Shown here one piece after another: positions 14,149 to 17,925 of a stretch of DNA of 64,000 nt. Each line of letters starts with the position of its first letter. The first letter of the stretch is position 1. A program made the position numbers and the translations under genes. This DNA comes from Bradyrhizobium sp. Ec3.3 (GTDB lineage: Bacteria; Pseudomonadota; Alphaproteobacteria; Rhizobiales; Xanthobacteraceae): assembly GCF_000472925.1 (NCBI RefSeq), contig NZ_AXAS01000018.1, positions 1-64,000 of the forward strand, given 5' to 3'. Under the pieces are notes generated by a model, which was given only the letters and a program-made list of their open reading frames with translations, searched no databases and had not been told where the DNA came from.

Positions 14149-15390
14149 CTACCGCTTCGCGTCGGCCTGCTCCGTGCCCGTGCACGAGATCAGCATCGTG
14201 TAGGCGCGGGCGTTGCCGGCGATGTCGGTGGTCTTAAGTTCGCCTTTCGGCTCTGCGGTCTGGTAGGGCACGACGGAATTGTCGAGGAAGTCGCGCACTG
14301 CGCCGGTCTTGATCGCGAAGTTGATGTTTTCGGGGATCGTCCCGGTCGCCTTGATCACTGTCCTGGCATCGAGCTTCGCCACGACGACGCCGACCAGCTG
14401 GCCGGACGTGTCGAACAGTGGGCCGCCGCTGTTGCCCGGCTGGACGGCCGCGCTGATCTGGAGGTGACGGGTGTCGTTGAGAATGCCGCTGAGCGAGCTC
14501 ACGATTCCCGTCGTGACCGTGAAGTCGGAGGTCAGGAGGCCATGGTAGGGAAAGCCGATCGCCACGACGGAATCGCCGGAACGGATTGAACGATCGCGGA
14601 TCCTGGCAAAGTCCTTGAACGTGGCTGTCGCGGGCGCCTGGAGCAGCGCCAGATCGTTGATCGCATCGCGCGACACGACGCGCAGCACCATCGTCGCTTC
14701 GCCGGTGAGATTACCCTTGATGTCCCCGACGCAGCCGTCGATGACATGATTGTTGGTGACAATGTGCCCGCTGGCGCTGACCACAAAGCCCGTGCCGCTG
14801 TAGGTTCCGGTCTTGCCCGGCTTGGCGGCGGGCGGCGCGGCTGGTTTCTCTCCCGTCGCCGGCTTCGCCGCGACCTTGGTGAAATCGCCGGCCTTGCTGA
14901 GTCCGTCGGCCTTTACCTTGGTGACGCAATTGGCCAGCGCCGCGATCACGGGCCCGCTCGACGTCAACTGGAATTGCAGGACGGTGCGGCCGGCCGTCGC
15001 GACCATAAGGCTCGCCTTCTGGAACGACCGCACGACATTCGACGGCATGATCGCGGTGAGCATGTCGGATCGATTGGCTGTGGCAAACACGCGCGCTTGC
15101 TCCTGGCCGTCGAAGATCACGTCGATCGCTGCGTTCTCGCCCTTGTTGAATTTGTAGCCGGGACTGGCGAAGCTCAGCAGCCACGAGCCCGCTGCATTCT
15201 GGGCGACGACGAGAATGACGCCGTTGGCATAGGGCGCCGTTGCTGCGCAATGCGAGAACGCGCCGGACTCATCATTGCTGAACGCGCCGCCGACCCAATT
15301 GCCGATATTGACGGACCCGAACGGCCCCGCGGCATTGGCAAACCCGACAAGAAGAACGTGCAACACGCACGCAACAGCCCACTTCAGCAT
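14149..15390 (-). CDS. Exported trypsin-like serine protease (S1C/HtrA-like, no PDZ)
   Basis: The product has 413 residues with a signal peptide (MLKWAVACVLHVLLVGFANA, then A). An N-terminal domain of about 150 residues with IGNWVGGAFSNDESGAFSHC is of unknown role. A Pro/Ala/Lys-rich linker leads to a trypsin domain whose triad is intact: TNNHVIDGC (His), NDLALLQA (Asp) and QPGNSGGPLFD (Ser). No PDZ domain follows, so it differs from DegP/DegS. It probably works in the periplasm on damaged or regulatory proteins. It is divergent from the membrane-protein/uppS operon, and its promoter region may overlap that operon's operators. Confidence 0.88.
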   Translation of the reverse strand: MLKWAVACVLHVLLVGFANAAGPFGSVNIGNWVGGAFSNDESGAFSHCAATAPYANGVILVVAQNAAGSWLLSFASPGYKFNKGENAAIDVIFDGQEQARVFATANRSDMLTAIMPSNVVRSFQKASLMVATAGRTVLQFQLTSSGPVIAALANCVTKVKADGLSKAGDFTKVAAKPATGEKPAAPPAAKPGKTGTYSGTGFVVSASGHIVTNNHVIDGCVGDIKGNLTGEATMVLRVVSRDAINDLALLQAPATATFKDFARIRDRSIRSGDSVVAIGFPYHGLLTSDFTVTTGIVSSLSGILNDTRHLQISAAVQPGNSGGPLFDTSGQLVGVVVAKLDARTVIKATGTIPENINFAIKTGAVRDFLDNSVVPYQTAEPKGELKTTDIAGNARAYTMLISCTGTEQADAKR

Positions 15391-15498
15391 CGCAAAGCCC
15401 CCGGAACGCCCTTGGGCCGCATCTTACCTGTCCGATCCGGCCAGGCGCAACCGGCAGTTGTCCGGCGCCGGCCGTCGCCCGGCCGGACGGCGGCGCCC

Positions 15499-15526
15499 TT
15501 GCATTTACTTTGCGACGCGGTATACT
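15499..15526 (+). promoter_or_regulatory. Promoter of the membrane protein-regulator-uppS operon
   Basis: TTGCAT at 15499-15504 and TATACT at 15521-15526 are 16 bases apart. The -10 box overlaps the operator palindrome that starts at 15524. Confidence 0.6.
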
Positions 15527-15540
15527 TTGCATCACAAAGT
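15524..15540. promoter_or_regulatory. Operator copy 1 (ACTTTG-N5-CAAAGT)
   Basis: ACTTTG-CATCA-CAAAGT, a perfect 6-bp inverted repeat. The same 17-bp pattern recurs at 16591. A further half-site ACTTTG stands at 15507-15512. The winged-helix regulator encoded downstream is the likely ligand. Confidence 0.65.
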
Positions 15541-15589
15541 AAGGCTTGCACCCGTGGGTGCGAGGGTGGAACGAGGCTCGACGTTGCAG

Positions 15590-16207
15590 ATGCGCGATCT
15601 CGACAAGGCGCTGGCGGATATCGTGGCGATCCGCAGCCAGATCGCAGCCGGCACCGCCTTTCGCGGCTACGGTCCCGCGACGATGGTCGCAACCGGAGCG
15701 CTCGCACTGATCACCGCCATCCTGCAATATCTCTTCATCGACGACCCGACCACCGAGCCGCTCGCGTTCTTCCTCGGCTGGGGTCTTGCGGCGGCGCTCT
15801 CCGGCGCCATCATCTGGATCGAGATGCGCGCGCGCTCGCGCCGTCATCACTCCGGTCTTGCCGATGTCATGATCTACCAGGCGATCGAGCAGTTCCTGCC
15901 GGCCGGTGTCGCCGGCGTGCTGCTTGCGGTGGTGTTGTGGAAGTTCTCGGCCGAGACGCTCTGGTTGTTGCCGGGCTTGTGGCAGATCCTGGTGTCGCTC
16001 GGCATTTTCGCTTCCGTCCGCTCGCTGCCACGCAGCGTGGCGCTGGCGGGCGCCTGGTATTTCGTGTCGGGATTCGCGGTCGTTGTGCTGGCGAGCCAGA
16101 CCCACACGCTTTCGCCCTGGACCATGGGGCTACCCTTCGTGATCGGGCAGTCCGTGATGGCCGGGATTCTCTATGTTGCGTCTGGAGACAATGATGTCGA
16201 AGACTGA
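15590..16207 (+). CDS. Multi-pass membrane protein, function unknown
   Basis: The product has 205 residues beginning MRDLDKALADIVAIRSQIAA. It has about five hydrophobic segments: near residues 34-48, 57-75, 100-120, 126-142 and 155-200 (the last region probably two). The soluble N-terminus is a short amphipathic helix. An in-frame GTG at 15554 is a possible earlier start, and the ribosome site is weak for either. No family is recognised with confidence. The gene is first in an operon with a winged-helix regulator (overlapping by 14 bases) and a cis-prenyltransferase, so it may sense or act on the cell envelope or on polyprenyl lipids. Confidence 0.7.
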   Translation: MRDLDKALADIVAIRSQIAAGTAFRGYGPATMVATGALALITAILQYLFIDDPTTEPLAFFLGWGLAAALSGAIIWIEMRARSRRHHSGLADVMIYQAIEQFLPAGVAGVLLAVVLWKFSAETLWLLPGLWQILVSLGIFASVRSLPRSVALAGAWYFVSGFAVVVLASQTHTLSPWTMGLPFVIGQSVMAGILYVASGDNDVED

Positions 16208-16568
16208 AAGCGCGCCCTTCTCCTACGAAGGCCTCGACCGCGTCATCCACGAGAAGGCGAGGCTTGGCCTTTTGACCTCGCTGATGGCGCATCCGAAGGG
16301 TCTTGCCTTCGCCGATCTCAAACAGCTTTGCGGCCTGACCGACGGCAATCTCAGCCGGCATCTCGCCGTGTTGCAGGAGGCCGGCCTCGTCGACGTGACC
16401 AAGGGCTACGAAGGCAACCGCCCCCACACCACCTGCCGGCTGACAAAAGCCGGTCGCCGCCGCTTCCTGGACTATCTCAGCGTGCTCGAACGCCTGGTGC
16501 GCGATGCCGCCAAGGCCGCCGGCCGCGAGGCGCCGCCGCTCGGCCGCCTCGGCATCATCTCGACCTGA
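16194..16568 (+). CDS. Winged-helix (MarR/ArsR-like) transcriptional regulator
   Basis: The product has 124 residues beginning MSKTESAPFSYEGLDRVIHE. The helix-turn-helix is clear: LGLLTSLMAHPKGLAFADLK, then GLTDGNLSRHLAVLQEAGLV as recognition helix, then the wing VTKGYEGNRPHTTCRLT, and a C-terminal dimer helix (GRRRFLDYLSVLERLVRDAA). GGAGACA precedes ATGATG at 16191-16196; I use the second ATG for spacing. It overlaps the membrane-protein stop. The two identical-pattern palindromes, one on the operon promoter and one on the uppS start codon, are probably its targets, giving autoregulation and direct control of uppS. Confidence 0.85.
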   Translation: MSKTESAPFSYEGLDRVIHEKARLGLLTSLMAHPKGLAFADLKQLCGLTDGNLSRHLAVLQEAGLVDVTKGYEGNRPHTTCRLTKAGRRRFLDYLSVLERLVRDAAKAAGREAPPLGRLGIIST

Positions 16569-16590
16569 TCACCCCATTTCTTGACCGGAG

Positions 16591-16607
16591 ACTTTGCGAT
16601 GCAAAGT
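16591..16607. promoter_or_regulatory. Operator copy 2 over the uppS start codon
   Basis: ACTTTG-CGATG-CAAAGT; the ATG at its centre (16599-16601) is the uppS start. The extended arms ACTTTGC and GCAAAGT pair perfectly around GAT. The pattern is the same as at 15524-15540. Confidence 0.65.
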
Positions 16608-17330
16608 GACGTCACGCAGGCAAACGAAAAGCTTCACGTCGGCATCATCATGGACGGCAACGGAAGATGGGCGACACGGCGCGGCCTGTCGCGCGTCCGC
16701 GGCCACGAGGCCGGCGTTGAGACGATCAGGCGCATCGTCGAAGCGGCACCGAAGCAAGGCATCGGCACGTTGACGCTCTATGCGTTCTCGACCGACAACT
16801 GGCGCCGGCCCAAGGCCGAGGTCGCAGCGCTGATGACGCTGCTCCGCTTCTATCTCGCCAACGAGGTACAGAGCCTGGTCAAGAACGGCGTGCGGCTCTC
16901 CGTTATCGGCCGCCGCGACCGCCTGCCCGAGGGCATCGCCGCGGCGATTGCAGGTGCGGAGCGCGCGACCGCCCGCGGCAAGACTCTGCATTTGCGCATC
17001 GCCGTCGACTATTCGGCGCGCGACGCCATCCTCAACGCCGCCGCGAAGGCGGCCGCGCTGACGAGCCTGACCCGCGAGGCCTTCTCGCAGCTCGTCACCG
17101 GCGAAGCATCCTTGCGCGACGTCGATCTCATCATCCGCACGTCTGGCGAAAAGCGGCTGTCGGACTTCCTGTTGTGGGAGGGCGCCTATGCCGAGCTGCA
17201 TTTCACCGAGCGGATGTGGCCCGAATTCGATGCCGGCGATCTCGCCGAGGCGCTTGCCTCCTTCCATCGCAGGGAACGCCGCTTCGGCGGCTTGCAGTCC
17301 CTGCCGCTGGAGCCCGCGCCGAGCATTTGA
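16599..17330 (+). CDS. uppS: Cis-prenyltransferase (undecaprenyl diphosphate synthase-like)
   Basis: The product has 243 residues. The N-terminal motif [13 protein letters not shown] (Asp19 is the catalytic diphosphate-binding Asp), then [14 protein letters not shown], and the C-terminal [20 protein letters not shown] followed by WPEF are the five conserved regions of cis-isoprenyl transferases. The enzyme adds isopentenyl units to farnesyl diphosphate to make the lipid carrier for peptidoglycan and O-antigen. GGAG stands eight bases before the ATG. The housekeeping uppS usually sits in the dxr-lpxD cluster, which is not here, so this is probably a second, regulated copy. It is the last gene of the operon and its start codon lies inside an operator. 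Confidence 0.92.
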
Positions 17331-17439
17331 CGCGATGCGGCATGGCGGCCGATGCCGAAAAGTTGAGCAGCTTCGCCGCTTTTATCCCTTCGACGCCGGA
17401 CGTGCCGGTGCCTAGTCTCCCGGAGATGGGGATATCGAT

Positions 17440-17925
17440 ATGCGCGCAGTCCTTGACTATTGCACTGGCGGAACGCAGCGGCAGGTGCCAGCCGGAACCT
17501 TGATCCTCACCGAGGGCGGCGCCTCCGGGCACCTCTACGTGCTGATGGAAGGCAAGCTCGAGGTGATCAAGGGCGGCACCGTGGTTGCGACCATCGCCGA
17601 GCCCGGCGCCGTGTTCGGCGAGATGTCGGTGCTGCTCCAGCAACCCCATACCGCGACGGTACGTGCTTGCGTCGATTCCGTCATCTACGAGTTCGACGAT
17701 GCCGCCTCGTTCCTGATCCAGAAGCCGGAGGTCGCGCTTCTGCTTGCGCGCCTGCTGGCGCAGCGGCTCAATGTCGCCAACACCTATCTTGCCGATCTCA
17801 AGCGGCAATATGCCGGCCAGGGCAACCATCTGGCGATGGTCGGCGACGTCCTGCAAAGCATGATCAATCTGCCGCCGCAGGAGGTTTCGCCAGGCTCGGA
17901 TCGGCAATCCGATCCAAGAATGTGA
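17440..17925 (+). CDS. Cyclic nucleotide-binding domain protein without HTH
   Basis: The product has 161 residues beginning MRAVLDYCTGGTQRQVPAGT. It carries the cNMP-binding beta-barrel: LILTEGGASGHLYVLMEGKL, then VVATIAEPGAVFGEMSVLLQ followed by PHTATVRA, which is the phosphate-binding cassette (FGEM, then TATV). The C-terminal helices end without the DNA-binding domain of Crp/Fnr proteins, so it is a stand-alone sensor domain of unknown partner. Its last 62 bases overlap the convergent metallophosphoesterase gene. Confidence 0.85.
   Translation: MRAVLDYCTGGTQRQVPAGTLILTEGGASGHLYVLMEGKLEVIKGGTVVATIAEPGAVFGEMSVLLQQPHTATVRACVDSVIYEFDDAASFLIQKPEVALLLARLLAQRLNVANTYLADLKRQYAGQGNHLAMVGDVLQSMINLPPQEVSPGSDRQSDPRM

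Follow-up and report, generated by a model that had tools for sequence, protein, structure and literature searches.

Gene layout and a repeated palindrome

Three genes follow one another on the forward strand of the window, by which we mean the whole 64-kb stretch of Bradyrhizobium sp. Ec3.3 DNA analysed here, and encode a membrane protein, a winged-helix regulator, and a second cis-prenyltransferase. The gap between the regulator stop and the uppS2 ATG is 30 bp, and the gene layout supports the view, put forward in the initial annotation, that the three genes form one operon. The features of the locus are as follows:

15498..15503 (+): putative -35 element, CTTGCA; CTTGC, CTTGA, or GTTGC precedes site 1 in 99 of the 107 distinct loci that were scored
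15507..15512 (+): additional ACTTTG half-site, with a presumed function, lying between the -35 and -10 elements; a CTTTG half-site occurs in 52 of 107 loci scored
15521..15526 (+): putative -10 element, TATACT; in 71 of the 107 distinct loci that were scored, site 1 is immediately preceded by TAT
15524..15540 (no strand): site 1, putative operator ACTTTGCATCACAAAGT, an exact match over the -10/start region
15590..16207 (+): partner membrane protein; tblastn match in 114 of 114 distinct loci, partial at contig ends
16191..16568 (+): winged-helix regulator, HTH_34 (PF13601, 4.6e-21)
16591..16607 (no strand): site 2, putative operator ACTTTGCGATGCAAAGT, an exact match over the uppS2 start codon
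16599..17330 (+): second cis-prenyltransferase gene, uppS2 (NF011412/PRK14839)

The regulator ATG was set at 16191 (alternative starts, 16173 and 16194). The putative -10 and site 1 have the bases ACT in common, and the -35-like element lies 25–26 bp before site 1 in 93 of the 99 loci in which it was seen. A consensus promoter scan of positions 15380–17480 returned no promoter, site 1 included, and a consensus scan for intrinsic terminators found none between the regulator and uppS2, its sole match being inside the membrane gene. Upstream of the operon, a divergent ORF (14149–15390, minus strand) resembles, by eye, a trypsin-like serine protease, and an ORF related to it occupies the same place in two other enlarged loci compared.

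Sites 1 and 2 are both exact copies of the 17-bp pattern ACTTTG-N5-CAAAGT, as the initial annotation had reported, and its placement of the uppS ATG at the centre of the second copy is equally accurate (ATG at 16599–16601, with its A as the central base). Allowing up to two mismatches, the 64-kb window holds three matches, two of which are sites 1 and 2; at least three matches arise in 3 of 100 shuffles, so the match count in the window is by itself weak evidence. Across the genome (10,034,502 bases), there are three exact palindromes, compared with none for a backward control pattern. The third, which was the one further copy returned by the genome-wide search that had been recommended, falls within an ORF of contig C153 that is unrelated to the operon and, judged by eye, encodes an NRPS thioesterase. 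This 16-kb contig (L014) carries NRPS-like and transposase-like ORFs, again by eye, and its palindrome is probably there by chance. With up to one mismatch, eight further sites were found genome-wide versus six for the control, which amounts to background, and a larger regulon in this genome was dropped on that ground.

The regulator passes the PF13601 (HTH_34) gathering score comfortably (75.2 versus 27 bits). Its structural model is a confident winged helix with PDB neighbours among MarR- and PadR-like regulators, and its best PDB sequence match is PH1061 (1ub9). Regulators of several named Bradyrhizobium species are 92%–97% identical to it. Within this subfamily, Cys51 is invariant (35 of 35 aligned relatives) and Cys86 is present in at least 90%, with numbering from the translation that starts at 16179; these residue statements rest on alignments A3 (32 loci) and A4 (34 loci), for which 37 of 80 loci, picked for diversity, were the input. 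An HTH_34 paralogue encoded in the same genome differs in having, by eye, Thr at the Cys51 position.

The partner membrane protein had no Pfam family over cut-off (E up to 1 for the window protein and up to 0.1 for 33 aligned members), nor did a sequence search of the PDB return a match. Its AlphaFold2 model (mean pLDDT 90.2) has seven helices, namely an N-terminal helix and six long ones. A Foldseek search with this model returned nothing at E 0.001 or better, and the best VIA-align match (Z 8.8, to a designed helical barrel) may reflect a common helical arrangement only; we therefore claim no named fold for the protein.

UppS2 scores above the NF011412/PRK14839 cut-off (423.9 versus 334 bits), aligns with solved UPP synthases over residues 9–233, and contains both MDGNGRWA and RTxGExRxS, which we take to be conserved cis-prenyltransferase (UPP synthase fold) motifs. 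By family, motifs, and alignment, it is assigned as a second cis-prenyltransferase. NF011412 was over cut-off in 36 of 296 family genomes, in every case at 356.9 bits or more, and the next match had 270.8 bits; by score, the UppS2 family is clearly separate from housekeeping UppS. The initial annotation had made its proposal depend on the genome having another uppS and had suggested searching near dxr, and a housekeeping copy is indeed located there (C58:85760–86422), in the order tsf-pyrH-frr-uppS-cdsA-dxr-rseP-bamA, with neighbours named by eye.

Conservation of the module and exchange of its cargo

Related loci were pooled to a total of 122, of which 114 are distinct after dropping identical regulator DNA. 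The pool includes the best 80 of 568 related stretches from a scan of 84,980 species genomes, so the true spread of the module exceeds the spread seen here. Counting a site as kept at two mismatches or fewer, site 1 is kept in 107 of 113 distinct loci (0.27% in shuffled DNA; the cut locus L159 was excluded from site 1 counts) and site 2 in 105 of 114 (0.26% in shuffled DNA), where the loci are related by descent and the counts are not independent events. Loss of both palindromes from close relatives that retain the genes had been named as an outcome that would speak against the initial annotation; instead, the palindromes are kept where the three genes stay together.

In the family sample, all 36 uppS2 loci over cut-off also match the membrane protein and the regulator. 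Site 1, at up to two mismatches, is present in 35 of them, the remaining locus being cut by a contig end. Site 2 is present at the same threshold in 32 of 36 and degenerate or absent in L043, L077, L079, and L081, and is thus not indispensable. Among the 27 genus genomes, the 21 with uppS2 have at least two exact sites in 18 cases, one in two cases, and none in one case (G242, in which the sites have one and two mismatches), while the six genomes without uppS2 have no exact site in four cases and one in two cases, each within another ORF. A class sample of 385 genomes yielded four further strong regulator orthologues outside the family, and all four loci have the cassette and both sites at two mismatches or fewer.

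Judging by record titles, many of which belong to metagenome bins, the module occurs in Alpha- and Gammaproteobacteria, Acidobacteria, Binatota, and Planctomycetota, and one carrier, Singulisphaera acidiphila DSM 18658, is represented by a complete genome. Site 1 has three mismatches in five of the six planctomycetotal loci, and so misses the threshold of two mismatches there. A regulator match at E 1e-20 was found in one of 72,556 plasmid records (Aureimonas). Two loci assigned to Acidobacteria by title (L213 and L230) have site 2 in two tandem copies, 36 bp apart, near the uppS2 start.

The genes behind the module are exchanged between lineages. Across the 114 distinct loci, the cargo is uppS2 in 101, ispH in 6, a DUF4153 gene in 5, hpnI-hpnK-hpnL in 1, and unassigned in 1. 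Some of the 101 uppS2 loci also hold, by tblastn, a BchE-like B12 radical SAM gene (30 loci, one of these genes being a lower-score fragment counted on identity), another B12 radical SAM gene (3 loci), or a DUF4153 gene (2 loci). In all six planctomycetotal loci, the module is followed by IspH, identified by NCBIfam in two and by eye in four. One gammaproteobacterial bin has hpnI, hpnK, and hpnL as cargo, all over cut-off and on a single contig, and in an acidobacterial bin CreD is encoded between the regulator and uppS2. Judging from these gene assignments, the common thread of the cargo is usually isoprenoid supply or isoprenoid lipids; DUF4153 and CreD are exceptions, and so leave room for a wider envelope role. 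A repressor dedicated to a lipid-carrier synthase, as first proposed, is too narrow a description, since 13 of the 114 distinct loci have no uppS2 and carry other cargo.

In DUF4153 loci without uppS2, a short ORF begins within site 2 in L156 (the same stretch as L085), L086, and L165. These ORFs (L085:2242–2487, L086:2008–2196, and L165:5409–5612) start with MQS..., precede the DUF4153 genes, and have "xDGWWL" in common by eye; none of the three had a Pfam match. A hopanoid link by co-occurrence was considered separately and rejected: squalene-hopene cyclase is found in 35 of 36 uppS2 genomes versus 151 of 260 others (186 of 296 in total), a comparison confounded by phylogeny because all 27 genus genomes have the cyclase, with or without uppS2.

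A predicted two-operator switch

Codon choice in uppS2 indicates that site 2 is conserved as a DNA sequence and not merely as a peptide. Where codon 2 encodes Gln, it is CAA in 81 of 84 cases, and where codon 3 encodes Ser, it is AGT in 71 of 88 cases; in the remainder of these genes, CAA accounts for 19% of Gln codons and AGT for 2.5% of Ser codons. These counts omit nine of the 101 uppS2 loci (L158, L161, L164, L168, L187, L190, L201, L209, and L081), in which there was no site 2, no start codon at its centre, or no required motif in frame. The position on a start codon is itself not essential, since ispH, where it is the cargo, starts downstream of site 2 instead of within it, 45–71 bp past the first base of the site in five of six loci. 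In L080, the predicted uppS2 start is upstream of site 2, and the palindrome persists with one mismatch. No helical phase is apparent in the distances between sites 1 and 2 (1021–1160 bp; R 0.07, n = 98), which gives no support for DNA looping.

That the HTH_34 regulator is the factor binding the palindrome is supported indirectly, through distant members of its family. An exact ACTTT-N7-AAAGT lies approximately 0.6–0.7 kb upstream of the regulator match in 6 of 20 distant HTH_34 loci; in the control, a match free of mismatches arose in none of 2,000 shuffles, and one with a single mismatch in 0.25%. Six more of the 20 have an ACTCT-N7-AGAG form, which was spotted post hoc and has no control of its own, so that a related palindrome occurs at this distance in 12 of 20 distant PF13601 members. 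A further likeness is that a membrane-type ORF precedes the regulator in the loci listed. The ACTCT-N7-AGAG form is found at the same place in L101, L103, L104, L110, L111, and L117, and might represent a switch in specificity. We found no characterised PF13601/HTH_34 regulator in our searches of the open-access PMC literature.

We consider it probable that the module is an autorepressor–membrane protein pair that locks both its own promoter and a cargo consisting mostly of isoprenoid genes. Most likely, a dimer of the HTH_34 regulator would bind ACTTTG-N5-CAAAGT. When bound to site 1, it would cover the -10/start region and block transcription of the operon, resulting in autoregulation; at site 2, approximately 1.06 kb downstream, it would cover the start of the cargo and block RNA polymerase again. 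With two such locks, the sensor pair would be made at a low level and the cargo kept tightly off. The six-helix membrane protein would most likely relay the state of the membrane or envelope to the regulator, as SdpI does to SdpR. Release would be expected to raise the polyprenyl diphosphate supply beyond that provided by housekeeping UppS, because the cargo here is a second cis-prenyltransferase. The dual control suggested in the initial annotation, in which the operon is repressed and uppS is blocked a second time, is upheld as a layout, with the same operator present twice.

What the pair might sense is a separate matter. A general envelope-stress module, in which the pair would sense membrane or envelope damage and isoprenoid genes would be one of several envelope cargos, is a serious possibility, if one to which we give less than an even chance; it fits the two-operator mechanism and departs from the preferred reading on signal and purpose. 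The DUF4153 membrane cargo (5 of 114 loci without uppS2, and 2 more beside uppS2) and the CreD gene of the acidobacterial MAG both favour it, and UppS itself serves the cell wall. However, IspH in six of six planctomycetotal loci and the three hopanoid genes of a gammaproteobacterial MAG have no direct wall role. The polyprenyl-lipid sensor named in the initial annotation is a guess, for which the identity of the cargo supports an isoprenoid or hopanoid theme. More specifically, and tentatively, the pair could be a portable sensor-repressor of isoprenoid status, with a membrane protein that reads a lipid, a repressor that switches the isoprenoid enzyme of each lineage, and two operators that set separate thresholds. 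The lipid would then perhaps be a polyprenyl or hopanoid lipid of the inner membrane, and the enzymes, just as tentatively, UppS2, IspH, HpnI-K-L, and a BchE/HpnR-related B12 radical SAM enzyme. As an alternative input, the regulator might itself sense redox state or metals, because of its invariant Cys51 and its widely conserved Cys86.

Returning to the two-lock arrangement, the action at each site can also be read differently. Instead of acting as a roadblock, site 2 could mark an internal promoter from which uppS2 has a regulated transcript of its own, which we think unlikely. Operators sit most often at promoters, and a run of at least five T is found in the 30 bases preceding site 2 in 80 of 105 loci versus 0.9% of places picked at random in those loci, but no promoter-like hexamers were found near site 2 by the consensus scan (which also missed site 1), and the CTTGC/TATACT pair of site 1 is absent at site 2 in the listed loci. 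At positions 16570–16590 of the window, the T-run upstream of site 2 is broken (ATTTCTTG).

More doubtful still is an activating, or dual-acting, regulator at site 1. The extra half-site between -35 and -10, seen in about half of the loci scored, would suit activation, yet an operator that overlaps the -10 and the presumed start, as site 1 does, is typically repressive, and two like sites would need opposite actions. Least probable of all, and rejected here, is an RNA hairpin by which site 2 would fold in the mRNA over the start codon and control translation, with site 1 as the sole operator: the site 2 of the window could form a stem of 7 + 7 bases with a 3-base loop, and site 2 contains the start ATG in 88 of 99 uppS2 loci scored (GTG in four more), but at each of the seven positions pairing stays within about 1.5 points of the shuffled value and so gains nothing over shuffles, A-C mismatches occur at two positions (in 20 and 16 of 111 loci), the promoter carries the same sequence, beyond the same shape, and the palindrome stays both where the start has moved (L080) and where ispH starts beyond the site.

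Known systems and a distant BchE-like gene

The winged-helix protein SdpR of Bacillus subtilis provides a point of comparison for the predicted autorepressor and its partner. According to the available text of PMC1626106, this autorepressor shares one operon with the polytopic membrane protein SdpI, which relays a signal by holding SdpR at the membrane. The module likewise pairs a predicted autorepressor with a polytopic membrane protein in one operon. Nonetheless, the regulator of the window scores 15.2 bits against an NF033789 cut-off of 100, below membership, neither the window membrane protein (E up to 1) nor 33 aligned members (E up to 0.1) had an SdpI Pfam match, and the available text of the same source describes neither a metabolic cargo nor a second operator over a cargo start. 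The resemblance would be one of working principle and not of family membership.

Two other systems share single elements with the module. Clostridioides difficile has a redundant, diverged second cis-prenyltransferase beside the housekeeping one; its uppS2, however, belongs to the PSII surface-polymer locus, and the part of PMC4973711 that deals with it mentions no repressor, membrane partner, or operator. In Lactococcus lactis, uppS is one of many cell-wall genes whose transcription rises when the small MarR-family regulator RmaH is overexpressed (PMC13277315). RmaH differs in altering many genes, and the available portion of that paper describes no local operon with a second uppS.

No description of this regulator–membrane protein–cargo module was found in our searches of the open-access PMC literature. 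The logic of an autorepressor with a membrane partner is known; what is new lies in its targets and in the additional putative operator at the start of the cargo. The two-site module is real, strongly conserved, wider than the initial annotation held, and apparently undescribed in the open-access literature searched. Undecaprenyl phosphate is the carrier of most bacterial surface polymers, and, to our knowledge, little is known of how its supply is adjusted at the level of transcription in bacteria. A module that extends from Bradyrhizobium to Singulisphaera, with uppS2, IspH, or hopanoid genes placed behind one putative repressor and its membrane partner, offers a concrete and testable entry to this subject. 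Its layout suggests, as a prediction from sequence, a dedicated switch for isoprenoid lipids; it is a compact two-operator switch offered for study, in which the sequence of an operator shapes the first codons of an enzyme.

The gene after uppS2 reads as BchE in seven enlarged loci, and reaction-centre genes were tested for this reason. They occur in 16 of 61 genomes tested and not in the window's own genome, which also gave no BchE-like match at E 1e-60. PF00124, used as a reaction-centre proxy, is absent from 6 of 11 genomes with a BchE-like gene (G037, G056, G078, G080, G185, and G212) and present in five. With reaction-centre genes missing from these six genomes and from the window's own, photosynthesis was ruled out as the common function. 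The two BchE-like genes tested exceed the TIGR02026 cut-off of 481.35 bits, with 517.5 and 548.4 bits. Since genes of this kind (L124:4858–6381, L131:2802–4340, and relatives) include relatives in the six genomes without reaction-centre genes, the name BchE may be over-assigned.

A regulon in trans appears in only one of three genomes where it would be possible. The BchE-like genes of G080 and G185 are likewise remote from the cassette, and their 1.5-kb flanks contain no site at two mismatches or fewer. In G056, the BchE-like gene lies approximately 1.9 Mb from the uppS2 locus and carries CTTGC...TATACTTTGCATCGCAAAGT together with a palindrome, at one mismatch, near its start. Its putative promoter, half-site, and operator are thus those of the cassette, which argues further against a repressor dedicated to a lipid-carrier synthase.
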